Shown here: positions 26,278 through 58,736 of the stretch, one piece after another
Position numbering within the stretch: the stretch's first letter is position 1
Layout: each line of letters starts with the position of its first letter
DNA from: Streptomyces sp. NBC_01775
GTDB taxonomy: Bacteria; Actinomycetota; Actinomycetes; Streptomycetales; Streptomycetaceae
Length of the DNA stretch: 64,000 bases
Reading direction: 5' to 3'
Assembly: GCF_035917675.1 (NCBI RefSeq)
Contig: NZ_CP109104.1
Location: forward strand, 6,758,001-6,822,000
Translations under genes and position numbers: made by a program
Notes under the pieces: model-generated
Seen by the model: only the letters and a program-made list of their open reading frames with translations
Database searches by the model: none
What the model was told of the DNA's origin: nothing

Positions 26278-27284
26278 CGAGCCCCGCTCCGGCGCGGCTG
26301 GCCGACCTCGCGGCGCACGCCGAGGTCAGCGAGGCCACCGCCAGCCGCGTCCTCAACGGCAAGCCGGGCGTTGCCCACGCCACCCGACAGCGGGTGCTGG
26401 CCGCGCTGGACGTGCTCGGGTACGAGCGCCCCGCGCGCTCCCGGCAGCGCAGCGCGGGCCTGGTGGGGCTGGTCATCCCGGAGCTGACCAACCCCATCTT
26501 CCCCGCGTTCGCGCAGGTCATCGAGCAGTCCCTGTCCGGATACGGCTACACGCCCGTGCTCGGGACACAGCTGCCGGGCGGGGCGACCGAGGACGAGCTG
26601 GTCGGCCAGTTCGTGGAGCGTGACGTCGCCGGGATCATCTTCTTGTCGGGCCTGCACGCCGACCTGACGGCGGATCCGGGCCGCTACGCGAAACTGGCGG
26701 GCCGGGGCGTGCCGTTCGTCCTCGTCAACGGCTACAACGACGACATCAGCGCGCCCTTCGTCTCCCCCGACGACCGGGCGGCGGCCACGATGGCCGTTGC
26801 GCACCTGCGTGAACTGGGCCACCGGAGCATCGGGCTGGCCGTGGGGCCCGAGCGCTTCGTGCCCACCCGGCGCAAGGTGGAGGGCTTCACACGGGCGATG
26901 GAAGCGGCGGGCGCGACGCCCCGTATCCAGCACACCCTGTTCACCGTCGAGGGCGGGCACGCGGCTGCCGGTGCGCTGCTGGACGCGGGCTGCACCGGAC
27001 TCGTGTGCGGCAGCGACCTGATGGCGCTGGGCGCCATCCGGGCAGTCCGCCAGCGCGGGCTGGCGGTGCCGCGCGAGGTGTCGGTCGTCGGCTACGACGA
27101 CTCGGAGCTGAACGCCTTCACCGATCCGCCGCTCACCACCGTCCGCCAGCCGGTGGGCGCCATGGCGAAGGCGGCCGTGCACGCGCTGCTGGAGCCGATG
27201 GGCGGCAGCCCGATGGGGGACACGGAGTTCGTCTTCCAGCCGGAACTGGTCGTGCGCGGCTCCACCGCGCACGCCCCCGGCTGA
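26274..27284 (+). CDS. LacI-family regulator (copy 2, MalR paralogue)
   Basis: 336 residues from the ATG at 26274, overlapping the aglA stop (ATGA). It aligns along its whole length with MalR copy 1: LADLAAHAEVSEATASRVLN, VGLVIPELTNPIFPAFAQVI, LVCGSDLMALGAIRAVRQRG, DDSELNAFTDPPLTTVRQP. The recognition helix has EATASRVLN where copy 1 and most family members have EATVSRVLN. This regulator is encoded inside the operon it probably controls, giving feedback. Whether both copies bind the same operators cannot be read from sequence. Confidence 0.92.
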
Positions 27285-27323
27285 CCGGGCCCGGTGGCTG
27301 ACCGGACGCCGGGGCTCAACCGG
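27279..27323. repeat. 17-bp tandem repeat spanning two convergent stop codons
   Basis: GGCTGACCGG recurs at 27279 and 27296, with a related GGCTCAACCGG at 27313, an exact 17-bp period. The TGA in the first copy is the stop of the LacI gene. The TCA in the third copy (27316-27318) is the stop of the convergent kinase gene. The gap between the two genes thus consists almost wholly of this repeat. Confidence 0.7.
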
Positions 27324-28917
27324 TCCTTCCCACCCGGGACTTGGCGGCGAGGGCGCCGCGGGCGAAGCAGAGCCGGTAGGCGTCGCCGGAGTTGAGGGCC
27401 GTGCTGTAGTAGACGCACCGCTGGCCCTCGGGGGTGCGCGGCGCCGCGTCCGGGGGGCCGTCGCGGGTGAACATCGGCATCCGGTCCTCCACCTCCGCGC
27501 GCGGCGTGCCGGGCCGCAGACCCGCGTAGGCGTCCTCGTCCAGCACCGACAAGGAGGAGCTGACCAGGCTCACCGGCAGCGACAGCAGCAGGATGCCGAC
27601 GACGACCGCGAGCGGCGCCAGCACCGTCTGGGTGAGGCTGCGCCGCAAGCGCTGCCTGGCCAGCGCCAGTTCGCGGGCCGAGGTGCTCGACCCGGGGCCG
27701 GGGCCGAGGCCGGGCGTCGCCTCGTGTACGGCGTGTACGGCGTTCACGGCGCTCACCGGGAAGGCTTCTCCCGGGGGCTCCGGCGCTGCGGACGCCCCCA
27801 CCGGCGGTTCGGCGACCGGGAGTTCGGCGGTGACCTCGAAGCCGCCCTCGCCGGTCGGGCCCGAGCGCAGCGTGCCGCCCGCCAGCCGTACGCGCTCGTC
27901 GAGCCCCACCAGTCCGGCGCCGCCCGAGGCCAGTCCGCGCCCGGTGTCCGGCGCGGCGTCCGACGGCGGGTCGTTGGCGACGGTGACCGTGCACCGGGCG
28001 TCCGCGTACGCGAGCGTGACACGTACCTCGGCGCCCGGTGCGTGCTTGGCCGCGTTCGTCAGCGCCTCCTGGACGACCCGGTGCGCGGCGTGCCGGGCCA
28101 TCGGCGGCAGCCCGTCCGCCGCCTCCCCGCCGGCCAGGGTGACCGTCAGCCCGCTGGCCCGCGCGCCCTGTACGACCTCCCGCACCGTCCCCGCGCGCGG
28201 AACGGTCGGCGCCTCCTCGCCGTCCTCGCGCAGCACGCCGATGATGTCGCGCAGCCGCGCCGTCGCCGCCGCTGCCGCCTCCCGCAGCTCGCCCGCCGCC
28301 GCCCGTTGGTCCGCGTCGAGGTCCGGGTCGACCTGGAGCGCCCCGGCCCGAACGGCGAGCAGCGTCAGGTCATGGCCCAGCGAGTCGTGCATGTCCCCGG
28401 CGATACGGGCCCGTTCGCGCAGCCGCGCCCGGTCGGCAGCCGTGCGCTGCTGCTGCTCCAGCTGTCCGGCCAGCCGCCAGCCGGTGCCCACCAGCTCGGT
28501 GTACTGCTTGCGGTGGCGCCCCAGCATCCACGGCAGGCCCGTGGCCAGCAGCAGCGTCAGCAACTGGGTGGGCCACGCCCACAGCTCCCGCTGGACGAAC
28601 ACACACAGCGGCAGCCCCGCCAGGGCGACGGCGGAGAGGAACCACAGCGCCGGGCGGGCCGCCACCCGCTGTCCGGCCAGGTAGCCGAACACCGCCAGCG
28701 CGGGCCAGTACTCGGGCGCCAGCAGCTCGGTGCTGGCGGCCAGCCCCATCGCGACCGGCACCGCCACCCCGGCCAGCGGCCACCGCCCGCACACCCGCGC
28801 CGCCACCACCAGCAGCGGCACCGCCACCGCCGCCGTCAGGGTGTCCTGGCCGTGCCGTTGGACGGCGGCGGCGAGCGGGGCCGCGCAGACGAGAGCGGCC
28901 AGCAGGAGAAAGCGCAT
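27316..28917 (-). CDS. Membrane histidine kinase with C-terminal membrane-anchored tail
   Basis: 533 residues. Four to five hydrophobic segments fill residues ~1-130. A HisKA_3 dimerisation domain follows (RARIAGDMHDSLGHDLTLLA, phospho-His in MHDSLGH), then an HATPase_c with HRVVQEALTNAAKHA and GAGLVGLDERV. Unusually the protein continues: a Pro/Ala linker, an extra membrane segment at ~440-465 (VLAPLAVVVGILLLSLPVSL) and a ~65-residue tail with two Cys (QRCVYYST, YRLCFARG) predicted to lie outside the membrane. It pairs with the response regulator at 29011, which is transcribed first. Confidence 0.9.
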   Translation of the reverse strand: MRFLLLAALVCAAPLAAAVQRHGQDTLTAAVAVPLLVVAARVCGRWPLAGVAVPVAMGLAASTELLAPEYWPALAVFGYLAGQRVAARPALWFLSAVALAGLPLCVFVQRELWAWPTQLLTLLLATGLPWMLGRHRKQYTELVGTGWRLAGQLEQQQRTAADRARLRERARIAGDMHDSLGHDLTLLAVRAGALQVDPDLDADQRAAAGELREAAAAATARLRDIIGVLREDGEEAPTVPRAGTVREVVQGARASGLTVTLAGGEAADGLPPMARHAAHRVVQEALTNAAKHAPGAEVRVTLAYADARCTVTVANDPPSDAAPDTGRGLASGGAGLVGLDERVRLAGGTLRSGPTGEGGFEVTAELPVAEPPVGASAAPEPPGEAFPVSAVNAVHAVHEATPGLGPGPGSSTSARELALARQRLRRSLTQTVLAPLAVVVGILLLSLPVSLVSSSLSVLDEDAYAGLRPGTPRAEVEDRMPMFTRDGPPDAAPRTPEGQRCVYYSTALNSGDAYRLCFARGALAAKSRVGRTG

Positions 28918-29010
28918 GCACCGAGCATCGCCGAACGCGGGGCCCGGTACCTCTGTCGAAAGTGGTGGTCCGGTGCCACGGTCAGCCGTCGTCGGCCCGC
29001 TCCGCGCTCC

Positions 29011-29751
29011 TCACGCCGGTTCGCCCACGTCGTCGGAGTCGCCCGCTTCGTCCGCGTCGGCCGCCCCGTCCACCAGGCCCGCCTCGTAGGCGAGGATCGC
29101 CGCCTGGACGCGGTTCTTCATGTCCAGGCGGGCGAGTATCTGACTGACGTACGTCTTCACCGTGCCCTCGACGACGTGCAGGCGTCCCGCGATGTCGGCG
29201 TTGGACAGCCCGGCCCCCACCAGCGAGAGGACGTCCCGCTCGCGGGGGGTGAGCCCCGCGATCCGCGAGCGGGCCGTGGCGCGCCGGCCGAGCTGCGCGG
29301 TGTCCATGTGGGAGATCACCCTGCGCGCGACGGCGGGGGAGAGGTAGGCGCCGCCCTCGTGCACGGCGCGGATGCCCGCCAGCAGCTCGTGCGGGTCGCC
29401 GGACTTGAGGACGAAACCGGCTGCGCCCGAGCCCAGCGCGCTCGCGATGTACTCGTCCTCGGAGAACGTGGTGAGCATCATCACCGCCGTCTCCGGCGAG
29501 GCACGGTGCAGTTCGGCGGCGGCGCGCAGTCCGTCCAGCCTCGGCATCCTGATGTCCAGCAGGCACACATCAGGGCGGTGCCGCAGCGTCAGCTCGACCG
29601 CCTCGCGCCCGTCGGCCGCCTCGGCGACGACCTCGATGTCCCCCGCCGAGCCGAGGATGGCCCGCACCCCGGCCCTGATCATCGCCTCGTCGTCCGCGAG
29701 GAGAACCCGCACGGGTCCGCCCGCCCGGCGCTCCTGCTCTGTCCTGTTCAC
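29011..29751 (-). CDS. NarL/LuxR-family response regulator
   Basis: 246 residues. Receiver domain with VRVLLADDEAMIRAGVRAIL, phospho-acceptor in CLLDIRMPRLDGL, switch region MMLTTFSEDEY and the conserved lysine in FVLKSGDP. The C-terminal LuxR helix-turn-helix is LTPRERDVLSLVGAGLSNAD, then GTVKTYVSQILARLDMKNR. An acidic tail follows. It lies 93 bp upstream of the kinase at 27316-28917 in the direction of transcription and is its likely partner. Confidence 0.93.
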   Translation of the reverse strand: MNRTEQERRAGGPVRVLLADDEAMIRAGVRAILGSAGDIEVVAEAADGREAVELTLRHRPDVCLLDIRMPRLDGLRAAAELHRASPETAVMMLTTFSEDEYIASALGSGAAGFVLKSGDPHELLAGIRAVHEGGAYLSPAVARRVISHMDTAQLGRRATARSRIAGLTPRERDVLSLVGAGLSNADIAGRLHVVEGTVKTYVSQILARLDMKNRVQAAILAYEAGLVDGAADADEAGDSDDVGEPA

Positions 29752-29778
29752 GGGATCAGCGTAAGAGACGCGGAGAGG

Positions 29779-29811
29779 CCGGCCCGGGCCGATGACGCGG
29801 ACCCGGGCCGG
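29779..29811 (-). terminator. Terminator hairpin after the dioxygenase gene
   Basis: A 10-bp perfect stem (CCGGCCCGGG at 29779-29788 with its complement at 29802-29811), 11 bp beyond the stop of the minus-strand dioxygenase gene. Confidence 0.7.
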
Positions 29812-29821
29812 TCCCGCAGGG

Positions 29822-30619
29822 TCACCCGGCGCTGTTGACCCCGACGGTCAGCGAGCCCGCGTAGCCGTCGGACGGGGTGGAGCCCAACGCCTTCAGCGTC
29901 AGGAGGCCGGACGTGGCTCCGCCGCCGTCGTAGATGGAGTCCTCGTCCAGGGTGACGCGCTCCGTCTCGTTCGTCGGATACGGGTCGGTCGCGGCCACCT
30001 GTTCCGTGGTCTCCTCGGCGAAGAAGAGCTGGCCTGTGTGGATCACTTCGCCGCCGCTGTACGAGCCGTCGTCCGTCAGCTCGACATCCGTGTGCACCTT
30101 GAGATGAATGTGCACGCAGCGGCCCCGGTACCACCCGGGGTAGACCGTGGTGAGCTTCGCGACGCCGTTCTCGCCGCTGAGGACGCCGCCGCGCAGGAAG
30201 GTGCCGTTGTCCGGCTCCTCGTGGCCGTTCTGGCCGACGAAACCCGAGTATTCGCCGAGCGCGTCGGCGTGCCACAGCTCGACCAGGGCCTTGGGGAGCG
30301 GGGCGCAGTCGTTGGCCTCGTCCACGACGGTGAGGGTGAGTTCCAGGGGGATGCCCGTCTTGTCCTCGCGGATGTCCTCGCGTACGAGGGCGCCGTCCAG
30401 CCAGTACGGGCCTTCGGTCACCTCTTTGGTGAGGGAGCAGACGGCGGCGCCGGCCGAGCCCGGCGCGGCGGCCGGGGCCGCGCTGGCGGAGGTGGCCGAT
30501 CTGGCGGTGACGCCCAGTCCGGCGGCCACCGCCGTGGCGCCGCCGGCGATCAGAAGTTTCCGTCGGCCCAGGGGGAAGGACCGTCGCTCTGCGTTCTCTG
30601 AGGCTGAAGAGTCTGTCAT
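29822..30619 (-). CDS. Tat-exported intradiol ring-cleavage dioxygenase family protein
   Basis: 265 residues. The N-terminus has a twin-arginine signal (GRRKLLIAGGATAVAAGLGV). The mature domain matches the intradiol dioxygenase fold: EVTEGPYWLDGALVREDIRE, ALVELWHADALGEYSGF, YPGWYRGRCVHIHLKV and GQLFFAEETTEQV. The Fe(III) ligands expected for the family, two Tyr and two His, are available in GEYSGF, YPGWY and CVHIHLKV. It is an extracytoplasmic member of the protocatechuate/catechol dioxygenase family with unknown aromatic substrate. Confidence 0.9.
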   Translation of the reverse strand: MTDSSASENAERRSFPLGRRKLLIAGGATAVAAGLGVTARSATSASAAPAAAPGSAGAAVCSLTKEVTEGPYWLDGALVREDIREDKTGIPLELTLTVVDEANDCAPLPKALVELWHADALGEYSGFVGQNGHEEPDNGTFLRGGVLSGENGVAKLTTVYPGWYRGRCVHIHLKVHTDVELTDDGSYSGGEVIHTGQLFFAEETTEQVAATDPYPTNETERVTLDEDSIYDGGGATSGLLTLKALGSTPSDGYAGSLTVGVNSAG

Positions 30620-30700
30620 GTACGCGGAATGTAGGGGGGCTTGCTGTCAGTTTCCTGTGAGAGACGTAAAGCCGAGCTCGCGCAAGCTCTCTTCCGGTCA

Positions 30701-30750
30701 GGGGGCGCCCGAAGGGGCGCGGGGAACTGCGCGCCCAGACCGAAAGCACC
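30701..30750. repeat. Recurrent Streptomyces intergenic element
   Basis: The core GGGGCGCGGGGAACTGCGCG (30714-30733) with flanking GGGGGCGCCCGAA is, from memory, a sequence met in many intergenic regions of Streptomyces genomes. It can fold (GCGC arms around GGGGAACT). The 222-bp gap 30620-30841 contains this element and no gene. Function unknown. Confidence 0.5.
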
Positions 30751-30841
30751 CGCACTCTGCACACCACAGGCAGGGGCAGCCCCTGCTCAGCACCAGGGAA
30801 GAGGGCGACAGAAAGGTCAGCCGGAACACGCCGCAGGCACG

Positions 30842-32854: not shown

Positions 32855-32916
32855 ATTGGTCTGAACGACCCATTGTTCCTACGGTCACCACGACCGCTGC
32901 CGTGCGCCCCGCCCGC

Positions 32917-32976
32917 CGGCCTCAGCCCGAGCGCCCGTGGGCCTCAGCCCGAGCGCCCGCCGGCCTCAGCCCGAGC
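32917..32976. repeat. 22-bp tandem repeat, three copies, at the kinase stop codon
   Basis: GGCCTCAGCCCGAGCG(CCCG) starts at 32917, 32939 and 32961. The third copy contains the TCA that is the stop codon of the minus-strand kinase gene (32966-32968) and encodes its last residues. The other two copies lie in the downstream gap. Confidence 0.85.
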
Positions 32977-34120
32977 GGTCGGAGGGGACCACCTCGGAGG
33001 GACCCAACGGGACAGCCGGGACCTCCAGAGTGACCATGGTGGGGCCGCCCTCCGGGCTGTTGAGCGCGAGGACGCCGTCGAACTGCGCGAGCCGCCGCTG
33101 CACCCCCTGCATGCCGGTGCCCTTCTCCAGGGAGGCCCCGCCCTTGCCGTCGTCGGTGACCGTCACCCGGATCATCGGGCCGGACGAGGTCTCCGCGTAC
33201 AGCACGTCGAGCCACACCCGGGAGGCCGCCGCGTGCTTGGCGGCGTTGGTGAGGATCTCGCTGACGGCGAAGTAGACGGCGGATTCCACCGGTTCCTCGA
33301 AGCGCCCCGCCAGCTCGATGTCCTCCGCCACCGGCATCTGCATCCGCAGCGCCAGCGCCCGCAGCGCGTCGGGCAGGCCCCGCTCGGCCAGCACCGGCGG
33401 ATGGATACCGCGCACCAGGTCGCGCAGCTCGGTCAGTGCCTCCGCCGAGTTCTCCCTGGCCTGCGCGATCATCTGCTTCGCGCGGACCGGATCCCGCTCC
33501 ACCAGCGCCTCGATGGTGCCCAGGCTCATGCCCATCGCGACCAGCCGCGCCTGGGCGCCGTCGTGCAGATCCCGCTCGATACGGCGCAGTTCGGCGGCCG
33601 AGGAGTCCACCGCGTCGTGCCGTGTCTCATACAGCTGCTCGACCCGCCGGGCCAGCAGCATCTCGCGGGTGGGCTCCAGCATCGCCTTGGTGAGCCGGTG
33701 GTTGAGCGGGAGCATGGGCGGCAGCAGCGCGGTGGTGAAACCGGCCGTCATATCGGCGGGCAGCCACGCCATGTCCCGCCAGGTCGCCGGGTCCTTCAGC
33801 AGCAGCGTGCACCGCTCGACCTGGCCGACGATGCCCTTGCGCAGGTCGAGCGGGAAGGGTCGGTACGGCTCGGGCACCCCCAGCCCGCCCCACCTGTCGA
33901 CCAGCTTCCGCCTGCGGTTCGCGTAGGCGCGCACCCCGCCCTGGGCGAGCGGGGTGGTGACCACGCCGACCCCCACGGGGATCAGCACGATCGAGACGAC
34001 CGACAGCACGAACAGCATGATCGACAGGGGGAGGGAGACCAGCGCGAGCGCCGGGCCCCGCACGAGGGCGAGCATCAGCTCGTGTGTCTGCACCGCCGCA
34101 CGCGGTCTGTCCTCTGCCAC
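32966..34120 (-). CDS. Sensor histidine kinase (HisKA_3)
   Basis: 384 residues. Two hydrophobic segments near residues 20-60 and a weaker one near 125-140 precede a HisKA_3 domain (AAELRRIERDLHDGAQARLV, phospho-His in DLHDGAQ) and an HATPase_c (SEILTNAAKHAAASRVWLDV, TDDGKGGASLEKGTGMQGVQ). It is strongly similar along its whole length to the kinase at 50899. The probable regulator is at 37398, separated by the GH89 gene; all three are on the minus strand with gaps of about 50-60 bp and may share a transcript. Confidence 0.92.
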   Translation of the reverse strand: MAEDRPRAAVQTHELMLALVRGPALALVSLPLSIMLFVLSVVSIVLIPVGVGVVTTPLAQGGVRAYANRRRKLVDRWGGLGVPEPYRPFPLDLRKGIVGQVERCTLLLKDPATWRDMAWLPADMTAGFTTALLPPMLPLNHRLTKAMLEPTREMLLARRVEQLYETRHDAVDSSAAELRRIERDLHDGAQARLVAMGMSLGTIEALVERDPVRAKQMIAQARENSAEALTELRDLVRGIHPPVLAERGLPDALRALALRMQMPVAEDIELAGRFEEPVESAVYFAVSEILTNAAKHAAASRVWLDVLYAETSSGPMIRVTVTDDGKGGASLEKGTGMQGVQRRLAQFDGVLALNSPEGGPTMVTLEVPAVPLGPSEVVPSDRSG

Positions 34121-34167
34121 GATCCTCTGCCTTCTGCCCTGAACTTCTCGCCGGGAGCCAGGGCCGC

Positions 34168-37335: not shown

Positions 37336-37397
37336 AGGGTGCCTCCACTGCCGTAAGTGACCAAAGACACGTACGGGGAGGCACGCTAACGACTCGG

Positions 37398-38045: not shown

Positions 38046-38146
38046 GGAAACTCCAAATTCGCAGCGGGCTGGGCCGTATGGCGGCAGGTCGCTAAGAATC
38101 TACCGCCCCCGCCCCATCCCCCGAACGAGAACGAGACCCTGCCGAC

Positions 38147-38861: not shown

Positions 38862-39491
38862 ATGGACAACGACCACGACCTCGGACAAGCGCTCGACGCG
38901 GTCGGCCCCCGGCTGCGCGCGCTGCGCCAGCGGCGCGAGACCACGCTGGCCGAGCTGTCGGCGGCGACCGATATCTCGGTGAGCACCCTGTCCCGGCTGG
39001 AGTCCGGCACCCGCCGGCCGAATCTCGAACTTCTGCTCCCCCTGGCCAAGGCCCACGGCGTCACGCTCGACGAACTCGTCGACGCCCCGCCGACCGGAGA
39101 CCCGCGCATCCACCTGCGCCCGGTCACCTCCCACGGCATGACGATGCTGCCCCTGACCCGTCGCCCCGGCGGCATCCAGGCGTACAAGCTCGTGATCCAG
39201 CCCGGCGACCGCCCCAACGACCCCGACCCCCGAAGCCACGAGGGCTACGAATGGCTCTACGTCCTCAACGGGCGCCTGCGCCTCGTCCTGGGCGAGCACG
39301 ACCTGGTGCTCCCACCCGGTGAAGCGGCCGAGTTCGACACCCGCGTACCGCACTGGTTCGGACCCGCCGAGGGCCAACCGGTCGAGTTCCTCTGCCTGTT
39401 CGGCAGCCAGGGCGAACGCGCCCACCTCCGCGCCCGCCCAGAGCCCCGCGCCGACCCCGATCCCCGCGAGCAGGGCGAGCCCCGCGAGTAG
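38862..39491 (+). CDS. XRE-family regulator with cupin sensor domain
   Basis: 209 residues from the ATG at 38862. The N-terminal XRE helix-turn-helix is RLRALRQRRETTLAELSAAT with ISVSTLSRLESGTRRPN. From ~110 a cupin_2 barrel follows: SHEGYEWLYVLNGRLRLVLG, LVLPPGEAAEFDTRVPHWFG. No Shine-Dalgarno sequence is visible, so a leaderless transcript is possible. In related genomes, as I recall it, this regulator is divergent from an intact FAD-dependent oxidoreductase that it controls; here that target is truncated. The last residues are encoded by an 18-bp direct repeat that contains the stop codon. Confidence 0.92.
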   Translation: MDNDHDLGQALDAVGPRLRALRQRRETTLAELSAATDISVSTLSRLESGTRRPNLELLLPLAKAHGVTLDELVDAPPTGDPRIHLRPVTSHGMTMLPLTRRPGGIQAYKLVIQPGDRPNDPDPRSHEGYEWLYVLNGRLRLVLGEHDLVLPPGEAAEFDTRVPHWFGPAEGQPVEFLCLFGSQGERAHLRARPEPRADPDPREQGEPRE

Positions 39492-39497
39492 GGCGGA
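39462..39497 (+). repeat. 18-bp direct repeat creating the stop codon
   Basis: CCCCGCGAGCAGGGCGAG (39462-39479) is followed immediately by CCCCGCGAGTAGGGCGGA (39480-39497). A C-to-T change in the second copy turns the CAG (Gln) of the first copy into the TAG stop of the regulator. Confidence 0.85.
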
Positions 39498-40245: not shown

Positions 40246-41280
40246 ATGCGTGCCAGAGGCATCAGCTACGACACCGGCTTCGTCCGCAACGGAGCGAGCT
40301 CCCGCAAGCTCTTCGACCCGGAGACGGTCCGGCGCGAGCTGCGCATCATCCGTGACGACCTGCGCTGCGACGCCGTCCGCGTCATGGGCGGCGACCCGGA
40401 ACGGGTGGAGCTGGCGGCGGGGTACGCCGCCGACCTGGGCCTGGAGGTCTGGTTCTCCCCCTACCCCCTGGAGCTGACCGCCGAGGAGATGCTGGAGCTT
40501 TTCGCCGACTGCGCCGAGCGCGCGGAGCGGCTCAGGCAGCGGGGAGCCGAGGTCGTGTTCGTCGCCGGCGCCGAGCTGAGCTTGATGGACAAGGGGTTCC
40601 TGCCCGGCGAGAGCACCGAGGAACGGGTGGCGCTGCTGAGCCGGACGGACAGCGTGCGCGAGCACATCGGCGAGGTAGGCGTACGGGTCAACGAGTTCCT
40701 CGGCAAGGCCGTGGCACTCGTCCGCGAGCGCTTCGGCGGCAAGGTGACCTACGCCGCCGTGCCATTTGAGCGCGTCGACTGGGCACCCTTCGACATCGTC
40801 TCCCTGGATCTCTACCGCTCGGCCGAGACCGCCGACCGGTTCGCCGAAGGCGTCCATGACCTCACCGCGCGGGGAAAACCGGTCGCGATCACGGAGTTCG
40901 GCTCTGCCGGATACCACGGCGCGGGCGAGCGGGGCGCGCACGGTCTGGAGATCGTCGAGTACGACGAGGACGCCGGTCCTCTGCGGCTGAAGGGTGAGTA
41001 CGCCCGCGACGAGGCCGGTCAGGCCGCCTATCTGCGCGAGCTGCTGGAAGCCTTCGACGCGGGCGGCATCGACAGCACCTTTGTGTTCACCTTCGCGCTG
41101 TACGACCACGTGCACCGCCCCGACGGCGACCCCCGTGACGACTTGGACCTGGCCAGCTATGGCATCGTCAAAGTCTTCGAGGACCGCCTCGGCACCACCT
41201 ACCCCGACATGCCATGGGAGCCCAAGGCCGCGTTCACCGCCCTCGCCGACTTCCACGGCCGACCGCTGGGGGAAGGCTGA
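40246..41280 (+). CDS. TIM-barrel glycosidase-like protein (annotated elsewhere as abortive infection protein)
   Basis: 344 residues starting MRARGISYDTGFVRNGASSR. The pattern of beta-alpha units (CDAVRVMGGDPERVELAAGY, GLEVWFSPYPLEL, EVVFVAGAELSLMDKGFLPG, FDIVSLDLYRS, PVAITEFGSAGYHGAGERG, STFVFTFALYDH) is that of a glycoside-hydrolase-like TIM barrel, with glutamates at the strand-4-like and strand-7-like positions (GAELSL, ITEFG). Homologues in Actinobacteria are, from memory, often labelled abortive infection protein; nothing in the sequence supports phage defence. It is divergent from and probably repressed by the TetR regulator. The stop codon lies in a tandem repeat. Confidence 0.8.
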   Translation: MRARGISYDTGFVRNGASSRKLFDPETVRRELRIIRDDLRCDAVRVMGGDPERVELAAGYAADLGLEVWFSPYPLELTAEEMLELFADCAERAERLRQRGAEVVFVAGAELSLMDKGFLPGESTEERVALLSRTDSVREHIGEVGVRVNEFLGKAVALVRERFGGKVTYAAVPFERVDWAPFDIVSLDLYRSAETADRFAEGVHDLTARGKPVAITEFGSAGYHGAGERGAHGLEIVEYDEDAGPLRLKGEYARDEAGQAAYLRELLEAFDAGGIDSTFVFTFALYDHVHRPDGDPRDDLDLASYGIVKVFEDRLGTTYPDMPWEPKAAFTALADFHGRPLGEG

Positions 41281-41340
41281 CGACCACCGGGGGCTGACGA
41301 CCACGGGGGCTGACGGCCACCGGGGCTGACGGCCACCGGG
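41277..41340 (+). repeat. 16-17-bp tandem repeat, four copies, starting at a stop codon
   Basis: CTGACGACCACCGGGGG begins at 41277, with variants at 41294, 41310 and 41326. The TGA in the first copy is the stop codon of the upstream TIM-barrel gene. The rest fills the gap to the convergent flavoprotein. Confidence 0.85.
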
Positions 41341-42529: not shown

Positions 42530-43486
42530 TCAGCCGATGACGCTCTTGATCCAGTCGCGCTGCTCGGCGGCGCTCGTGTAGATGTCGGGCGTCGTCGCGC
42601 AGTCGCCGACCGAGCGGCTGGTGATGCCCGCGAGCTGCCAGCGCCCGGCCGCCTTGGTCAGGGCCGCGGCGCCGGAGTCGCCTCCGCACGTTCCGGCGTT
42701 GCCGCCCGGGTTGTCGGTGCAGAAGTCGCCCTCCGCGATGCCCCAGGCGTCCCCGTCCTCCGGGTTGGAGACGCACTTGGGGGTGTCGGGCGCGAGGACC
42801 GGCAGGTCGATCTCCTGGTGCTTCACCGGGAGTTGGGCCGGGTTGTTGTCGGTGGCCTTGGTGTAGCCCCAGCCGGTGGCCTTGACGGTGTCCCCGGCGG
42901 CGGGCGTCGTGGCGGCCAGCGCCGCGGGCTTCTGCTTCACCTTCTCGGACAGCTGGATGAGCGCGATGTCCTGGCCGCTCGCCCTGTCCTCGTGGTACGT
43001 CCAGCCCGGGTTCACCTTGAACTGCTTGACGCCGACGACGGTGCCGCCCTGAGTACGGTCCAGGGAGCCGACCCGCACGTGGTAGAGCTTCGGGTCGTAC
43101 ACCTTCTCCGCGGAGACGCAGTGCGCGGCCGTCGCGACCCAGTCGGGGGCGATCAGGGTGCCGCCGCACGCGTGGGAGTTCGGGTTGCCGTCCCGCTCCT
43201 TCTGAAGGGAGACCACGAACGGGTACTTCTCGGTGGACTCCTTGCCACCGATGATCTTCGTCTCGTATCCGGAGTCCCCGGAGCCCTTCGCGGCGCCGGT
43301 GCTCTCGCCCGCGTAGGCGGCCGTGGCGCCCGTGGCACCTATGACGCCCGCGGCCAGCCCCAGTGAGAGAGCGGTGACGGCGGCTGCGCGCGTGGCCCCG
43401 CCTCTTCTGCGGGTCTTGCCGGTGATCTCTTCGGGGGTCTTGCCGTGGGCAGGGCGCGAACCGGGGGTTTCTCGCGAGTGCTTGAT
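42530..43486 (-). CDS. Secreted S1-family serine protease lacking a canonical start codon
   Basis: The protein contains a complete chymotrypsin fold: mature N-terminus IIGGKESTEKYPFVVSLQ, H122 (TAAHCV), D173 (GQDIALI) and S271 (CGGDSG), numbered from 43486. Upstream in the same frame is a signal peptide (RRRGGATRAAAVTALSLGLA, then an AYA-like cleavage site). Back to the in-frame TGA near 43655 there is no ATG, GTG or TTG. The best placed codon is ATC at 43484-43486 (AGGGAAGAG just upstream, then AAG CAC TCG), which looks like a mutated ATG. The only canonical in-frame start, GTG 43216, would remove the signal and activation site. Residue 189 (chymotrypsin numbering, six before the Ser) is Gly, so specificity should not be trypsin-like. 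Confidence 0.8.
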   Translation of the reverse strand: MKHSRETPGSRPAHGKTPEEITGKTRRRGGATRAAAVTALSLGLAAGVIGATGATAAYAGESTGAAKGSGDSGYETKIIGGKESTEKYPFVVSLQKERDGNPNSHACGGTLIAPDWVATAAHCVSAEKVYDPKLYHVRVGSLDRTQGGTVVGVKQFKVNPGWTYHEDRASGQDIALIQLSEKVKQKPAALAATTPAAGDTVKATGWGYTKATDNNPAQLPVKHQEIDLPVLAPDTPKCVSNPEDGDAWGIAEGDFCTDNPGGNAGTCGGDSGAAALTKAAGRWQLAGITSRSVGDCATTPDIYTSAAEQRDWIKSVIG

Positions 43487-43816
43487 GAGCTCTTCCCTTC
43501 GCTTTCCGTCCCCTTCACCGGAAGGGGACGCTGGGGGGATGTACGCGGGTCCGATGCGGGTCCGGTACGTGGCCCGGTGCTGGGGCCAGGAAGGTGCGTG
43601 GAGCTCATGCGAGAGCGCCTCATCCGTACCCTCCGTTGACCCGCGTATCCCTGGTCACAGGAACTGCGGGGTCATCCCATCCCCTCAACGCCCTTGTGTC
43701 CAAGCCTTTTTGGGGAGCGAAGACGGGAACGCGACACGGAGGATGAGATTCCGTGACGGCGCTTCTGCGGGGGAGGGCGCGGGGTGGGAGAGGGAACAGG
43801 GGGCGGGGAGCCGGGG
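43487..43816. other. Intergenic region without a recognised gene
   Basis: The sequence between the protease leader and the 20-bp repeat block contains a C-rich stretch and an AGGAAGGTG-like purine run. It also has the only poorly GC-biased segment nearby (AACGCCCTTGTGTCCAAGCC). Open frames here show no codon bias. The protease promoter should be in this interval. Confidence 0.5.
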
Positions 43817-43896
43817 GCGGGGCTGAGCCCGGGGAAGCGGGGCTGAGCCCGGGGAAGCGGGGCTGAGCCCGGAGAAGCGGGGCTGAGCCCGGGAAA
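43817..43896 (+). repeat. 20-bp tandem repeat, four copies, upstream of the acetyltransferase
   Basis: GCGGGGCTGAGCCCGGGGAA occurs four times in exact register (43817, 43837, 43857, 43877), with one or two changes in the last two copies. Each unit contains the small palindrome GGGCTGAGCCC. The last unit runs straight into an AAAGGAG ribosome-binding-like sequence at 43893-43899. Confidence 0.9.
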
Positions 43897-43935
43897 GGAG
43901 TGGCCTCTTCCCCAGGGCGCGCCGATCATGCGGAA

Positions 43936-47326: not shown

Positions 47327-47473
47327 GACGGCAGCGTAGGAGATACGGCAGCGTAGGAGACCGCCCGAGTGAGCCGCCCCACGATCCGTCTGCCCGGCCC
47401 GTCCACGCGAGGGCGGCGCGGAGGGGTGCGTTAGGGGTGCGCGAGGGGTGCACACCACGCGGGGCACGAAGGG

Positions 47474-47555
47474 CACGCGGGGCACGAGGGGCCCACAGAG
47501 CACGCGGGGCACGAGGGGCCCCACAGACCACGAAGGGCACGAGAAGCCCACAGGG
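47474..47555 (+). repeat. 27-28-bp tandem repeat, three copies
   Basis: Units beginning CACGCGGGGCACGAGGGGCC at 47474, 47501 and 47529, each ending in CCCACAG(A/G), fill the leader of the next gene and stop 7 bp before its GGGAGAGG ribosome binding site. Partial units extend upstream to ~47455. The third copy is diverged (A for G changes). Confidence 0.8.
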
Positions 47556-47576
47556 CACAAAAGGGAGAGGTACAGC

Positions 47577-48143: not shown

Positions 48144-48290
48144 GGGCAGGGCCACGGCCACCGGCTCGACGGGGGTGGTGAACAACACGGCCAGCGCGCG
48201 TGGGCGCACACGCCGCGAGTGGCCGAGCGGGCCGAACCCCCGCCCCGCAGGCGGAAGTCCAGCCCGGCCCTCCTCGGGACGCGCCCCCTC

Positions 48291-50600: not shown

Positions 50601-50898
50601 ATGGACGCTCCCCATATCTCGTTGTCCGGGACTTATTTCGTTTCCCGCGATGCGCCTGGTTCGAATACGTTCCTCTTGCACCGAAACGCTGTTCTTGCCG
50701 TGGGAACAACGCTAGAAAGCCGGGGGCCGCGGTCCCAGCCGCTGAACCCCCTGATCGCCGGAAGACAGGGCGAGTCCTGAGGGTGGTGCTAGGTCCACCC
50801 AGGGTTCTCTAGCTCGGGCCAGTGCGGTGCCGGGGCCGGGCGCCGCAGACTGGCAACGTGCCTGGAGAGCAGACACATGAGTACGGGGGCAGGCCGGG

Positions 50899-52266: not shown

Positions 52267-52310
52267 GCCCGGCAGGCCCGGGGGAGAGCGGTGTGGGCCT
52301 CAAGCCGGGC
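52267..52310. terminator. Terminator overlapping convergent 3' ends
   Basis: Nested stems GCCCGGC/GCCGGGC (52267-52273 with 52304-52310) and GGCCC/GGGCC inside. They follow directly on the kinase stop and include the LysR stop codon at 52300-52302. Confidence 0.65.
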
Positions 52311-53202: not shown

Positions 53203-53224
53203 ACGGCGAGCGTAGCCACGCATC

Positions 53225-53256
53225 GAAGAATCCGATCGGGAACATCGGAAATCTTC
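53225..53256. promoter_or_regulatory. Candidate LysR operator
   Basis: GAAGAATCCGAT (53225-53236) and ATCGGAAATCTTC (53244-53256) form a 12-13-bp inverted repeat with one extra base in the right arm and a 7-bp centre. It lies midway between the divergent LysR and MFS starts. Confidence 0.6.
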
Positions 53257-53294
53257 GTTGGACACGATCGGTTCTCCGGCCCTACAACTCGACC

Positions 53295-54692
53295 ATGCGC
53301 ACGACCCGTTCCGGACCCGCCGCCCCACGCCCCGCCGCCCCACACCCTGCCGCCCTACCCCCTGCGGCCCCACGCCCCGCCGACGCACACGCCGCAGCCA
53401 CGCCCGCCACCCCCCGTACCGGCCTCGCGAGCCGGGACTTCCTGCTGCTCCTGGCCTCCACCGCCGCGGTCTTCGGCAACTCGTCCCCGCTGCTCTCCGT
53501 AGTCCCGCTGTGGGCCGAACACGGTGGCGGTGGACACGGCGGCGCCGGTGCGACGACCGCTCTCACCATGGCCACCACCGTCGCTGCGCAGCTCGCCATG
53601 GGCCGGGTGCTGCGCCGCTTCCCCGCGCGCCACGCGCTGACCGCCGGGGCGCTGACGATGGGCCTGCCCGCCTTCGCGTACGCCCTCTCGCCCGCGCTGC
53701 CCCTCACGCTCGCGCTTTCCGCCGTGCGCGGCCTCGGCTTCGGCATGGTCACCGTCGCGGGCAGCGCGCTCGTCGCCGAACTGGTGCCGCCCGCACAGCG
53801 GGGGAGGGCCGTCGGCTGGTACGGCGTCGCGGTCGGGCTGCCCGCCGTCGCGTTGCTGCCGCCGGCAGTGTGGTGCGCGGCGGAGTTCGGCTTTGGCCCC
53901 GTCTTCCTCGCCACGGCCGCGCTCGGCGTACTGGCGGCCCCGCTCAGCGCCCTCATCAGCCACGACGCCGGCCACGACGCCGACCACAATGCGGGCCCCA
54001 ACGCCGGCCACACCGCTGTCGCCGAACCAGGAGAGGACGCGAGCGCCGCGCCCCGCGAGGACACCACCGGGGGTGCCCGCCCCGGCCTTCGCGCGCTCGC
54101 GACCCCGTGGCTGCTGCTGTTCGTCTCCGTGTGCGCGCTCGGCAGCCTCATGTCCTTCCTGCCGCTCGCCCTCACCGCACCGGGTACGGCCCCCACCGCG
54201 CTCCTCACGGTCTCCCTCGCGCTGATCGTGGGCCGCTGGGCGGCGGGGGAGTGGAGCGACCGGCGGGGCGCCGCCGGTCGGCTCGCGGCGCCCGCCGCGT
54301 TGGCCTGCGCGCTCGGCACGGCCGCCTTCGCGGCGGTAGGCACGCTCCCGGCGGGCCGGGCGCTCCCCGTGGGCATCGCCGCCGGGCTCGTCTTCGGCCT
54401 GGGTATGGGCGCCCTCCAGAACGACACCCTCGTGGCGATGTTCCACCGCGCGGGCCCCGCGCACCACGGCACCGTCAGTGCCGTCTGGAACATGGGCTAC
54501 GACAGCGGCTTCGGCGCCGGAGCCCTGCTCACCGGCGTCCTGGCCCAGGCGCTCGCCCTCAGCCTTCCCACCACGTTCCTCGTCCTGGCCGCCACCGTCG
54601 CCACTGTCCTGCTGATGACGACGGTGTCGGCCAGGGGGGGAGCGAGGTCCCGGGAACGTGATCCGGACGACGGGAGGCCACCCAACGCCTGA
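53295..54692 (+). CDS. MFS transporter
   Basis: 465 residues from the ATG at 53295. The first ~45 residues are an Ala/Pro/His low-complexity extension, followed by about twelve membrane segments in two halves. AMGRVLRRFPARHALTAGAL is the conserved loop 2-3. The central cytoplasmic loop after segment six carries a degenerate DAGHDADHNAGPNAGH repeat. The protein resembles drug-efflux MFS permeases. The substrate is unknown, and control by the divergent LysR gene is likely. Its stop codon lies within a 17-bp direct repeat. Confidence 0.9.
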   Translation: MRTTRSGPAAPRPAAPHPAALPPAAPRPADAHAAATPATPRTGLASRDFLLLLASTAAVFGNSSPLLSVVPLWAEHGGGGHGGAGATTALTMATTVAAQLAMGRVLRRFPARHALTAGALTMGLPAFAYALSPALPLTLALSAVRGLGFGMVTVAGSALVAELVPPAQRGRAVGWYGVAVGLPAVALLPPAVWCAAEFGFGPVFLATAALGVLAAPLSALISHDAGHDADHNAGPNAGHTAVAEPGEDASAAPREDTTGGARPGLRALATPWLLLFVSVCALGSLMSFLPLALTAPGTAPTALLTVSLALIVGRWAAGEWSDRRGAAGRLAAPAALACALGTAAFAAVGTLPAGRALPVGIAAGLVFGLGMGALQNDTLVAMFHRAGPAHHGTVSAVWNMGYDSGFGAGALLTGVLAQALALSLPTTFLVLAATVATVLLMTTVSARGGARSRERDPDDGRPPNA

Positions 54693-54734
54693 CGCGGGCC
54701 TGCCCCGTACAGGCCTGCCTGACGCGGGACTGCC
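54688..54734. repeat. Direct repeat at the MFS stop codon
   Basis: CCTGACGCGGG(C/A)CTGCC occurs at 54688-54704 and 54718-54734, 30 bp apart. The TGA in the first copy is the stop of the MFS gene. Further downstream (54750-54825) GAATCC recurs at least five times, so the whole 141-bp convergent gap is repetitive. Confidence 0.75.
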
Positions 54735-54833
54735 TCACACAGGCCCCCACGAATCCCGCCTCCCACGACCCCCAGGAATCCGTCCCCCCGAATCCGCCCT
54801 CCCACGAATCCCCACGAATCCCCCGACTCCGTC

Positions 54834-56489
54834 TCACACGAGCGCCGACACCTTCTCCCGGTACTGCCGCACCGGCGCCGCGTCGCGGTAGGGCTCCAGC
54901 CGTCGCTCGAAGTCCCGTACATACTCGTGCGCCCGCACCGAGCGCATCTCCGCCGCCTGGTGCGCCGCCTCGACGCCCAGCGCGCAGGCCTGCTCGATCT
55001 CTCCCAGCCCCAGCCGGGCCGAGGCGAGCACCACCCGGCAAAAGAGCCTGCTGCGCGCGAACCCCGCGCCCCGCAGCTGGAGCGACCGCTCGGCGTGCTG
55101 CGCCGCCGCGCGGTACTGCTGGAGGTCGCGGTGGCAGTGGCCGAACTCGTCGGCGAGCTGCGCCTCGTCGAAGAAGCGTGCCCACTGCGGGACGTCCTCC
55201 CCGGGCCGTGCGCTCTCCAGCGCCCGCTCGGCCCGTGCGAGCGAGGCGGTGCAGGCCCGTACCTCGCCGAGCACCCCGTGGCCCCGCGCCTCGGCGGCGT
55301 GCAGCAGCGCCTGGACGACGGGCGCCGCCGAGGCGCCCACGCCCTGCTGCGCGACCCGCGCGAGCTGTACCGCCTCGCGGCCGTGCCCCAGGTAGACGGC
55401 CTGCCTGCTCATCGTCACGAGGACGTAGCTGCCGAAAGCGCGGTCGCCGGCCGCCTGGGTCAGCCGTAGGGCCTGGACGAAGTAGCGCTGGGCGAGCCCG
55501 TGCGCGGCGATGTCGTACGACGTCCAGCCCGCCAGCCGTGTCAGGTCGGCGGCGGCGCCGAAGAGCCGGCGCCCGAGCTGCTCGCCGTAGACGCCGCGCA
55601 GCATCGGTTCGGCCTCGTGCTCCAGATACCGCACCAGGGCCTGCCTGGCGTGGCCGCCGCCGTAGGCGTGGTCGAGCGCGCGGAACAGCTCGCAGACCGA
55701 GCGCAGCGCCGCCACGTCACCGCCGGAGACCCGCTGGCCCGGGCCACGCTCGACCCGGTCGAGCCGCGCGGCCGACAGCGCGGGCCGGGCCACCATGCCG
55801 GGGCCCGCCACCCGCGTCTGCGCGGGCACCCGCACCCCGCCGCTGTGCACCAGCGCGGGGCCTTGCCCGTGCGGCTGGCCCGGCCCGTGGCCGTGGCCTG
55901 CGGCGTGTCCGTGTCCATGTCCGTGGCCGGGACCTGTGCCGGCGCCCGCGCCCACCGGCGTCTGCCCGGGCCCCGGCGGGTGACCGAGCCCCGGTGGATG
56001 ACCCGAGGGGCCGTCGGGTTCCGGACCGCGCGCCACCCGCTCATCGGCTCTGCCGATCAGCCAGTCGCGGCTGGGAACCACGAGCCCCGCCGGGGTGAAG
56101 GCGATCTTCCGCAGCTCGGCGTGGCTGCCCGAGTCCTTGCGCCACAGGCCGCTGACGATGTCCACCGCCTCGGCGGGGGTCGCGGCGAACTCAAGGCCCG
56201 CGTACACCGGGGCGCACGCGTCCAGGCCGAGGTCCTGGGCGGTCAGCCGCCGGCCGAGCCGGCGGGTGAAGACCTCGGCGATCAGCGCGGGGGTCGTGCC
56301 CCTCGGCTGCTGTCCGCGCAGCCAGCGGGTCACCGAGGTTTTGTCGTAGCGCAGGTCAAGACCGTGTTCCAGGCCGAGCTGATCCACCCGCCTGGCGAGT
56401 CCGGCGTTGGAGAAGCCCGCCTCGGCGATCAGCGCGGCGAGCTGGCGGTTGGGGATGCGCTGCTGGGATGACTGGGTCGCGTCGCTCAC
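54834..56489 (-). CDS. NsdA-like XRE/TPR regulatory protein
   Basis: 551 residues from GTG 56489 (GGGGG upstream); ATGs at 56510 and 56516 are alternatives. The N-terminal ~100 residues contain a DNA-binding-like domain (RQLAALIAEAGFSNAGLARR, YDKTSVTRWLRGQQPRG). A conserved middle (AATPAEAVDIVSGLWRKDSG) is followed by a His/Gly-rich low-complexity stretch (GHGHGHGHAAGHGHG, ~195-215). The C-terminal half is helical and TPR-like (VRYLEHEAEPMLRGVYGEQL, QALRLTQAAGDRAFGSYVLV). Similar proteins act as developmental or antibiotic regulators in Streptomyces. It is divergent from lipB. Confidence 0.8.
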   Translation of the reverse strand: MSDATQSSQQRIPNRQLAALIAEAGFSNAGLARRVDQLGLEHGLDLRYDKTSVTRWLRGQQPRGTTPALIAEVFTRRLGRRLTAQDLGLDACAPVYAGLEFAATPAEAVDIVSGLWRKDSGSHAELRKIAFTPAGLVVPSRDWLIGRADERVARGPEPDGPSGHPPGLGHPPGPGQTPVGAGAGTGPGHGHGHGHAAGHGHGPGQPHGQGPALVHSGGVRVPAQTRVAGPGMVARPALSAARLDRVERGPGQRVSGGDVAALRSVCELFRALDHAYGGGHARQALVRYLEHEAEPMLRGVYGEQLGRRLFGAAADLTRLAGWTSYDIAAHGLAQRYFVQALRLTQAAGDRAFGSYVLVTMSRQAVYLGHGREAVQLARVAQQGVGASAAPVVQALLHAAEARGHGVLGEVRACTASLARAERALESARPGEDVPQWARFFDEAQLADEFGHCHRDLQQYRAAAQHAERSLQLRGAGFARSRLFCRVVLASARLGLGEIEQACALGVEAAHQAAEMRSVRAHEYVRDFERRLEPYRDAAPVRQYREKVSALV

Positions 56490-56745
56490 GGAACCCCCAG
56501 GTCGTTCCATCGTCATCAGGTTTACGGTCTCCTGCCCTCGCGGCTTACGGCAGACGCCGGGGCGCCCTGCTGGAACGGCGCGAATGTAACGGGCCCTCGC
56601 ACACCGTTCGCCCCCTTCGTCGGGCATTCATCCGTACGTGTGAGGAGGCAGCCACCTGCGGGGGCGGTGCGCCCCGGCCGTACAGTGGCGGTGGGCGCGA
56701 GCGCGGATCCGCTCGGGTCCGAGAGGCGGTAGGAGGAGGAACGGC

Positions 56746-57639
56746 ATGGGGCAACCCCTGGCGAGCAGCCAGCCTGAAAGTGAACTTCGGTTCGTCCACC
56801 TGGGGTTCGGCGCCGACGCCGTCGAATATCTGGAGGCGTGGGACGAGCAGCGCCGGGTGCACGCGGCGCGCTTCGCCGACGAGATCCCCGACACCTGTCT
56901 GCTGCTGGAGCACCCCCCGGTCTATACCGCCGGCCGGCGCACCACCGATGACGAGCGCCCGCTTGACGGCACTCCTGTCGTCGACGTGGACCGCGGCGGC
57001 AAGATCACCTGGCACGGCCCCGGTCAGCTCGTCGGCTACCCGATCCTGAAGCTGCCGCGTCCCGTGGACGTCGTGGCGCACGTCCGCCGCCTGGAAGAGG
57101 CCATGATCCGCGCGTGCGCCGACCTCGGCCTGGAGACGACCCGGGTGGAGGGCCGCAGCGGAGTGTGGGTGCTGGGCGACCCGGTGGACGAGCGCCCGGC
57201 GCTCCCCGGCCTCTCCCTGGACTTCGACCCGCGCCTCAACCAGGAGGACTACGACCCCCGCCTGATGGGTCCCGAGTACGCGCCCTCCAACGCGGGGCAG
57301 CGCGGCGAGGACCGCAAGCTCGCCCAGATCGGCATCCGTGTCGCCAAGGGCGTGACCATGCACGGCTTCTCGTTGAACTGCAACCCCGACAACACCGGTT
57401 TCGACCGGATTGTCCCCTGCGGTATCCGTGACGCGGGCGTCACCTCGCTCTCCAACGAGCTGGGCAGGAATGTTCCGGTCGCCGAGGTGCTTCCGGTAAT
57501 GGAGAAACACCTGCGCCAGGTCCTGGAGTCCGCGAACCCCATGCCGCGCACGGAGTCGACGGACACCGCGTCACGCACGGGGTCCGTCGGCTCCGTGTCA
57601 CCCACGGGGTCGGCCGACCCCGAGCCGCGTGCGGTCTGA
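56746..57639 (+). CDS. lipB: Octanoyltransferase LipB
   Basis: 297 residues; the ATG at 56746 is preceded by AGGAGGAGG. It moves octanoyl groups from acyl-carrier protein to lipoyl domains, the first step of lipoate synthesis. Catalytic residues are C225 (VPCGIRDAG) and K191 ([11 protein letters not shown]); [18 protein letters not shown] is the substrate loop. A ~40-residue insert lies between GVWVLGDP and the catalytic Lys, usual for actinobacterial LipB. The C-terminus ends in three in-frame 9-residue repeats ([27 protein letters not shown]). lipA follows after 96 bp. Confidence 0.95.
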
Positions 57640-57735
57640 GGGCGGCTCATCGCCCTTGAGCCCGTACGAGACCCCTTAAAGCGCAGGCGTAGGCTGATAC
57701 CCGCCGCTGAATCGAAAGTACGTAGGGAGCCGGAC

Positions 57736-58698
57736 GTGTCCGCTGTCGCACCCGACGGTCGCAAGATGCTCCGCCTGGAGGTCCGCAACAGCCAGACCCC
57801 CATCGAGCGCAAGCCCGAGTGGATCAAGACCCGGGCGAAAATGGGCCCCGAGTACAACGCCCTCCAGAGCCTGGTCAAGAGCGAGGGGCTGCACACGGTC
57901 TGCCAGGAGGCCGGCTGTCCGAACATCTTCGAGTGCTGGGAAGACCGCGAGGCGACCTTCCTGATCGGCGGCGAGCAGTGCACCAGGCGCTGCGACTTCT
58001 GCCAGATCGACACCGGCAAACCCGCCGAGCTGGACCGCGACGAGCCCCGCCGTGTCGCCGAGTCGGTCCGCACGATGGAGCTGCGCTACGCCACCATCAC
58101 CGGCGTGGCCCGCGACGACCTGGACGACGGCGGCGCCTGGCTCTACGCCGAGACGGTCCGCCAGATCCACGCCTTGATGCCCGACACCGGCGTCGAGCTG
58201 CTCATCCCCGATTTCAACGCCGAGCCCGACCAGCTCGCCGAGGTCTTCTCCTCGCGCCCCGAGGTGCTGGCGCACAACGTCGAGACCGTGCCGCGCATCT
58301 TCAAGCGCATCCGCCCCGGCTTCCGCTACGAGCGCTCCCTCGACGTCCTCACCAAGGCCCGTGAGGCCGGTCTCGTCGTCAAGTCCAACCTCATCCTCGG
58401 CCTGGGGGAGACCCGCGAAGAGATCAGCGAGGCCCTCCAGAACCTGCACGACGCGGGCTGCGAGCTGATCACCATCACCCAGTACCTGCGCCCCACGCCC
58501 CGTCACCACCCGGTCGAGCGCTGGGTCAAGCCGCAGGAGTTCGTGGAGCTGAAGGAGGAGGCCGACGAGATCGGCTACGCGGGCGTGATGTCCGGCCCTC
58601 TGGTCCGCTCCTCGTACCGCGCGGGCCGCCTCTACCAGCAGGCGATCGACGCCCGCCAGGGCACGACCTCGGCGGAGGACGCGACCTCCGCGGCGTAG
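57736..58698 (+). CDS. lipA: Lipoyl synthase LipA
   Basis: 320 residues from GTG 57736 (GGGAG about 6 nt upstream). A radical-SAM enzyme that inserts two sulfurs into protein-bound octanoyl groups. The auxiliary cluster cysteines are C56, C61 and C67 ([12 protein letters not shown]). The radical-SAM cluster is C82, C86 and C89 (CTRRCDFC). GLGETREEI and [13 protein letters not shown] are typical of LipA. The C-terminal R-S-S-Y motif (VRSSYRAG) is present. The coding end overlaps an imperfect direct repeat that continues past the stop. Confidence 0.96.
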
Positions 58699-58736
58699 GA
58701 CGCGCTCTCGGAGGCGGAGGACGCCCCCGCCGCGTA
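58668..58736 (+). repeat. Imperfect ~30-bp duplication across the lipA stop codon
   Basis: CTCGGCGGAGGACGCGACC...GCGGCGTA (58668-58697, ending in the first bases of the TAG stop) is followed by a diverged copy CTCGGAGGCGGAGGACGCC...GCCGCGTA (58707-58736). Confidence 0.65.

Follow-up and report, generated by a model that had tools for sequence, protein, structure and literature searches.

Tandem arrays across stop codons in Streptomyces probably reflect short duplications that are tolerated past gene ends

We describe short tandem arrays that run across stop codons in a 64,000-nucleotide stretch of the Streptomyces sp. NBC_01775 chromosome (bases 6758001-6822000 of the 9.06-Mb contig NZ_CP109104.1, hereafter the window), together with their distribution in wider samples of Streptomyces DNA. 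Arrays were counted with Tandem Repeats Finder (TRF) at a period of 10-60 and a score of at least 50, unless another score is stated. Exactly six window arrays cross a called stop, and all six had been listed in a preliminary description of this DNA. Four of them repeat the TGA in later units. The LacI-family gene 26274-27284 (Pfam LacI and Peripla_BP_3) ends in a 17-bp unit present 2.2 times at 27279-27316 on the plus strand, across TGA 27282-27284; the minus-strand histidine kinase gene 32966-34120 (HisKA_3 and HATPase_c) ends in a 22-bp unit present 3.1 times at 32910-32977, across TGA 32966-32968; gene 40246-41280 ends in a 16-17-bp unit present 4.0 times at 41275-41340 (plus strand), across TGA 41278-41280; and the major facilitator superfamily (MFS) gene (MFS_1) ends in a 30-bp unit present 2.0 times at 54687-54745 (plus strand), across TGA 54690-54692, which is overlapped or followed by more arrays at 54732-54781 and 54745-54821. 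The other two arrays contain a single TAG only. In the helix-turn-helix (HTH) and cupin gene (XRE-cupin; HTH_3 and Cupin_2) an 18-bp unit is present 2.1 times at 39458-39495 (plus strand) with the TAG at 39489-39491, and 34 bp of this array, stop included, lie inside the gene; a second 18-bp array is found near the same gene end at 39428-39468. In lipA (Radical_SAM plus LIAS_N) a 21-bp unit is present 2.6 times with 82% matches at 58670-58724 (plus strand), across TAG 58696-58698.

Some details of the preliminary description needed correction. It had given the MFS array a 17-bp unit and the lipA array one of about 30 bp, neither of which agrees with the TRF result, and it had placed the XRE-cupin array, whose 18-bp unit it had right, at 39462. 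Pfam supports its labels LacI, histidine kinase, HTH plus cupin, MFS and lipoyl synthase. The protein of gene 40246-41280, which it had called 'TIM-barrel', has no Pfam match and has relatives of at best 65% identity. A further array at 43807-43897 (20-bp unit present 4.1 times, 95% matches, TGA in the consensus) contains the end of the open reading frame 43323-43826; this frame has no Pfam match and is absent from the gene calls, and the array was therefore left out of the stop-spanning count.

The sample of this genome (G000) consisted of the window and 40 stretches of 20 kb, or 864 kb of 9.34 Mb. Comparison sets of 400 kb each came from Streptomyces (G009 and G005) and from another family of the same order (G026). 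Of 80 lipA loci in total, 55 Streptomyces loci formed a panel in the coverage and stop-count survey and 54 (without L072) in the later edge, junction, placement and hot-spot analyses; L132, a metagenome bin, was assigned to no panel. Gene calls came from a codon-score caller of our own making, the first version of which gave 743 stops and the retrained version 744. Checked against the annotation for 50 kb of a Streptomyces plasmid, the caller found 39 of the 41 stops annotated for genes of at least 300 bp, and 44 of 48 stops were common to caller and annotation.

The preliminary description had proposed a genome-wide comparison of tandem-repeat finder output with shuffled expectation. Run on the 864 kb, this comparison placed stop-spanning arrays far above the shuffled level: there were 35 at the 743 stops, versus 2, 0 and 1 in three whole-sample shuffles, and 37 at a score of at least 40, versus 4, 0 and 3. 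With the retrained calls, 36 of 744 stops lay within arrays; when gene ends alone were shuffled 20 times, the mean was 0.5 (range 0-3). Starts lay within arrays in 5 of 737 cases, and the rate for stops was not lower among better-supported genes (30/506). Shuffled sequence still yields 38-52 coding arrays at a score of at least 50, as would be expected if the arrays were a product of chance or of the composition of 71% GC DNA; however, the 36 spanned stops, and the 113 intergenic arrays versus 0-8 in three shuffles, leave this explanation with virtually no probability. For the class as a whole the shuffles refute chance; individual weak arrays may still have arisen in that way.

The pattern is real and is present in every Streptomyces set sampled. 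The other Streptomyces sets had 7/344, 8/332 and 28/781 stops spanned, and the four Streptomyces sets pooled had 79 of 2186 stops and 13 of 2178 starts within arrays, with this genome above the others (36/744 versus 43/1442, P 0.03). Outside the genus, stops were spanned in G026 (8/339), in nine loci of Kitasatospora and near genera (7/127) and, in small samples, in Nocardioides, Kribbella and Aeromicrobium (3/210) and Actinomadura (1/23). Stop-spanning arrays were absent from the likewise small samples of 20 GC-rich loci of other Actinomycetota (0/88 stops) and eight GC-poorer loci (0/24).

The units have no common sequence. Among the 35 stop-spanning arrays, mean best pairwise identity was 0.639, versus 0.625-0.630 for shuffled units, and 2 of 595 unit pairs reached a best identity of at least 85%, versus 0-1 in five shuffles. 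The units thus resemble each other no more than shuffled units do and give no sign of a transposed element, in agreement with the earlier suggestion of unrelated units and no transposed element. Mycobacterial interspersed repetitive units (MIRUs) also sit at gene ends, where they overlap stop and start codons, but they form one dispersed sequence family, whereas the Streptomyces arrays lack a shared sequence; among the 35 units we found none shared in the manner of a dispersed-repeat family of the MIRU or TAACTGA type.

Array coverage as a function of distance from the stop shows where the arrays are concentrated. Coverage was 1.6-3% in coding sequence, 4.8% at -10 to 0 and 8% at 0 to +10 of the stop, reached 14% at +20 to +40, stayed at 13-14% over +20 to +60, and was 5% by +150 to +250; around starts it was about 1%. 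The preference for gene 3' ends reported in the preliminary description is therefore clear. Its focus on the stop codon itself does not hold, because coverage peaks at +20 to +40, with the stop codon on the shoulder of the peak, and because convergent pairs match random placement (see below). Gene-side array edges step up within -20 to 0 of the stop, about one unit, and 29 of 36 stop-spanning arrays in this genome and 39 of 43 in the other Streptomyces sets start no more than 1.1 units upstream of the stop end. Such edges are expected if the first copy of the duplicated piece keeps the stop in place.

The orientation of neighbouring genes also matters. Intergenic coverage was 12.1% between convergent genes, 5.8% between same-strand genes and 4.0% between divergent genes, and in the same-strand gaps of this genome arrays lie nearer the stop (26, 15, 6, 12 and 5 in successive fifths of the gap). 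In gaps of 150-400 bp, convergent (23/226) and same-strand (39/413) pairs had arrays at similar rates within 120 bp beyond the stop. In gaps of 60-150 bp the rates were unlike (54/358 versus 13/348), as expected if the 5' region of the next gene forbids arrays.

Exact two-copy duplications carry information on how the arrays arise. Across the four Streptomyces sets, mean junction homology was 5.0 bp (n=70) for those outside or at the edge of genes and 4.5 bp (n=67) for those inside genes, versus 0.79 bp by chance. Junction homology is thus above chance, as expected of duplications made by microhomology slippage. The period was divisible by three in 66 of 67 coding duplications versus 34 of 70 others. 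A single duplication process followed by a reading-frame filter fits both the junction and the period data.

We consider it probable that short tandem duplications, primed by microhomology, form genome-wide and are tolerated where the protein is left unchanged. They would arise throughout Streptomyces DNA via template slippage between direct matches of about 5 bp, and the resulting arrays could gain or lose whole units. Selection would purge duplications that disrupt reading frames, starts or promoters; past the stop no coding sequence would be at risk, and duplications there would survive. Where a duplication takes in the stop, its first copy would end the protein at the same residue, and an extension of up to one unit into the gene would be harmless. 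Since the first copy keeps the stop, stop-spanning arrays would mainly mark the upstream edge of the tolerated zone rather than be aimed at stops. A minority (XRE-cupin and lipA) look like in-frame repeats of the protein tail with one copy carrying the stop, and these would shift the protein end. Of the causes offered in the preliminary description, slippage tolerated at 3' ends is the one that the data favour. From the location pattern, the junction homology, the frame filter, the convergent placement and one clear between-species difference in unit number, all of them observed, we infer both that slippage during replication makes the arrays and that they persist neutrally.

The placement of arrays within gaps bears directly on this explanation. 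Each array was moved at random in its gap, with one unit of overlap into the 3' end allowed; stop-spanning arrays for which no intergenic gap fitted were dropped, which kept 71 of 79 in the four Streptomyces sets and 31 of 36 in the NBC_01775 sample. In convergent pairs of the four sets, 35 stop-spanning arrays were observed and 34.7 expected. Stops are thus not targeted in convergent pairs. An excess is left in same-strand pairs, so that the outcome named in the preliminary description as refuting it, arrays no more frequent across stops than elsewhere between genes, was not obtained.

This excess is the first of several points that weigh against tolerance as the full explanation. Same-strand pairs had 36 stop-spanning arrays, versus 19.5 expected under flat placement and 25.0 when weighted for the gap at starts, and all pairs together had 71, versus 54.2 flat (P 0.002) or 59.7 weighted (P 0.03). 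Even at 100-250 bp from the nearest start, coverage in divergent regions was about 3%, which requires either constraint over the entire region or more input at 3' ends. Intergenic coverage in the 41 sampled stretches of this genome was 0.073 in the core versus 0.037 in the arms (P 0.005), the reverse of what a simple picture of relaxed arms would predict; the core excess was not seen in G009 or G005. Periods divisible by three are in surplus among non-coding arrays (55/113 in this genome) and among non-coding exact pairs (34/70 in the four sets), so that some arrays may belong to coding sequence that has decayed or escaped the gene calls. Finally, the unit-number comparisons described below rest on related species, not on strains of the same species, and give no rate.

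The low divergent coverage and the peak at +20 to +60 would also fit a mutational hot spot, in which termination, R-loops or converging polymerases raise slippage at gene 3' ends and input, not tolerance alone, makes the peak. Arrays confined to the final 150 bp of a gene are informative here, because protein constraint in that segment should not depend on the neighbour. These too tell against tolerance alone: in five sets, at a score of at least 40, they were found in 88 of 974 convergent versus 57 of 1171 same-strand cases (P 0.0001), with 47 versus 33 at a score of at least 50 (P 0.016) and 21 versus 10 at a score of at least 60 (P 0.017), and deeper in genes there was no convergent versus same-strand difference. 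Without the lipA panel (four sets) the difference persisted at a score of at least 60 (17/606 versus 8/833, P 0.013) but not at a score of at least 40 (41/606 versus 41/833, P 0.17) or at least 50 (23/606 versus 26/833, P 0.56). The lipA panel, a set of orthologous and non-independent loci, thus accounts for the excess at the two lower cut-offs, and the result, with three cut-offs tried and P values uncorrected, varies with cut-off and set. Moreover, same-strand and convergent 3' flanks are alike when gaps are long, and duplications inside genes have junction homology similar to those outside. We regard a hot spot as unlikely, and as slightly less likely still the fuller proposal that Streptomycetaceae 3' ends are duplication hot spots, through termination or replication-transcription encounter, with duplication constantly remodelling protein tails and tail-to-tail gaps.

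The preliminary description had alternatively suggested selection for spare stops, with the copied units acting as back-up stops, in several frames where the period is not a multiple of three. The recurrence of TGA in four of the six window arrays is in keeping with this idea, as is the frequency of an in-frame second stop within 21 codons, which was 0.54 for stop-spanning arrays (n=28) versus 0.23 for array-free ends (n=365). However, the duplication itself supplies the copied stop. A hand count of the 35 arrays gives 20 with a repeated stop and 15 without; 15 of the 35 periods are multiples of three, and second stops are less frequent in flanks with non-spanning arrays (0.13, n=70) than in array-free ones (0.23). 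The lack of a repeated stop in so many arrays and the low value for non-spanning flanks make selected spare stops a very improbable cause.

To place the arrays in a comparative setting, we scanned lipA ends and other orthologous ends at a lower TRF score of at least 45. Among the lipA matches listed from outside this genome, Streptomyces sp. AA1529 has the nearest (95% over the matched part). At the lipA end, 77 of 80 relatives had no spanning array (nine of these carry a non-spanning one nearby); the other three had spanning arrays with different units, and the relatives closest in sequence have none. Orthologous ends could be compared for 29 of the 50 window genes, with up to three relatives each, and by eye no relative's array at these ends shares its unit with the array of this genome. 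At the LacI gene end no array was listed at the orthologous ends in Streptomyces sp. AA1529, S. sulphureus and Streptomyces sp. JJ38, and at the histidine kinase gene end none was listed at the AA1529 orthologue. For the MFS gene, the best orthologue in 392 genomes of the genus had 71% nucleotide identity, too distant for the array to be compared.

Two further sites illustrate the same point. Past the SBP_bac_1 gene 21228-22499, an array of a 28-bp unit present 2.4 times (22504-22576, plus strand) begins 4 bp beyond the stop, which it does not span; AA1529 also has an array at this gene end, with a 23-bp period versus 28 bp here. The tail-to-tail gap 59950-60089, between genes 59257-59949 (plus strand) and 60090-60557 (minus strand), holds a 23-bp unit present 2.0 times (59969-60013) and a 17-bp unit present 2.0 times (60055-60088) that lies 1 bp past the stop of an RDD-family gene; the corresponding gap has 20- and 22-bp arrays in AA1529, a 15-bp array in JJ38 and none in S. 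sulphureus. Judged from these comparisons, array sites are lineage-specific. Because flanks have diverged at the compared ends, the comparison shows turnover, not rate.

Arrays were also compared between closer pairs, in 534 comparisons with several per array. In a separate analysis with one closest partner per array, length was kept in 0 of 6 stop-spanning, 84 of 98 coding, 2 of 12 near-3'-flank and 3 of 10 other intergenic arrays. The stop-spanning arrays differed by whole units in three of the six cases and by another indel in three, and in two of the three whole-unit cases the alignment shows no clean units. One clear difference in unit number with recognisable flanks was found, between Streptomyces sp. 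DvalAA-43 (L091) and S. gelaticus (L092). The former carries three 31-bp units between convergent genes whose stops are 70 bp apart, and the latter one such unit at the same site with 9 bp between stops; each unit resembles the ends of both flanking genes. Neither frame changes in length (212 and 176 codons, stop included), both end at the same residue, and in each 3 of the 44 end residues compared differ. We assign no direction to this change. The comparison of copy number among close strains that had been proposed earlier, carried out here on related species, thus gives one clean case of differing unit number.

The preliminary description had also considered selection for insulation, and the arrays could in principle be multiplied terminators or insulators. 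They sit at terminator positions and are commonest between convergent genes (12.1% coverage); by eye the 22504 consensus unit has a short inverted repeat, and the AA1529 array at that gene end also looks hairpin-like. Yet array flanks fold no better than other flanks (mean z -0.81 for 70 of 78 array flanks versus -1.03 for 70 of 317 array-free flanks), dimers of the units show no folding advantage over shuffled units (mean z -0.15, P 0.12, n=143), and the arrays are not conserved at the lipA end. The folding of neither array flanks nor unit dimers supports an insulating role, and we consider a terminator or insulator function exceedingly improbable.

In the literature searched, which had most subscription papers outside its scope, none of the papers listed describes a 3'-end or stop-spanning array pattern in Streptomyces. 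The closest in that literature is the study of Borg elements, whose tandem repeats evolve fast and arise independently, some with the first unit in gene ends (PMC9879509). As in Streptomyces, unit lengths within open reading frames are divisible by three, and example units are 18-21 nt; however, the Borg repeats are described as perfect and A-enriched, with six to eight units in the examples (PMC9879509), whereas the Streptomyces arrays are mostly imperfect, GC-rich, mostly of 2-4 units and on an ordinary bacterial chromosome. The TAACTGA repeats of Beggiatoaceae are likewise short direct repeats, and two close Cyanothece strains differ there mainly by indels in 7-nt steps, but they have a fixed 7-bp sequence and lie mostly upstream of starts (PMC4679880), unlike the arrays described here, which have unrelated units and lie downstream of stops. 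Constant-size bacterial repeats resemble ours in being of 20-21 nt with variable sequence, in generally giving no amino acid repeats and in occurring in Actinobacteria too, but they hold one unit size (PMC8161180), whereas the non-coding periods of this genome spread over 11-46 bp and are mostly 14-24 bp. Spontaneous rearrangements in Salmonella show junction microhomology above that of simulated chimeras, as here, but the verified duplications have junction homologies of about 11 bp or more (PMC3411829), versus a mean of about 5 bp and short units in our data.

The rule that a duplication across a stop keeps the protein would account for the genus-wide pattern without a new element, and it cautions against taking 3'-end repeats as regulatory. 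The arrays are possible natural markers for strain typing and, as the lipA and XRE-cupin genes suggest, a possible source of new protein tails.

Other repeats in the window are of different kinds. A cluster of arrays at 47328-47553 (an exact 17-bp unit present 1.9 times, an 11-bp unit present 4.1 times and 18-27-bp units present 2.9-3.6 times) sits 5' of, or within a longer frame of, a minus-strand GFO/IDH/MocA-family gene. At 2823-4281, a 276-bp repeat present 5.3 times lies in a hybrid histidine kinase of 1401 residues (522-4727, minus strand) that matches HAMP six to seven times, and is a coding repeat of known kind. A 138-bp repeat present 2.8 times at 9290-9675 lies in the open reading frame 9281-9919 (minus strand), which matches ricin-type beta-trefoil lectin domains.

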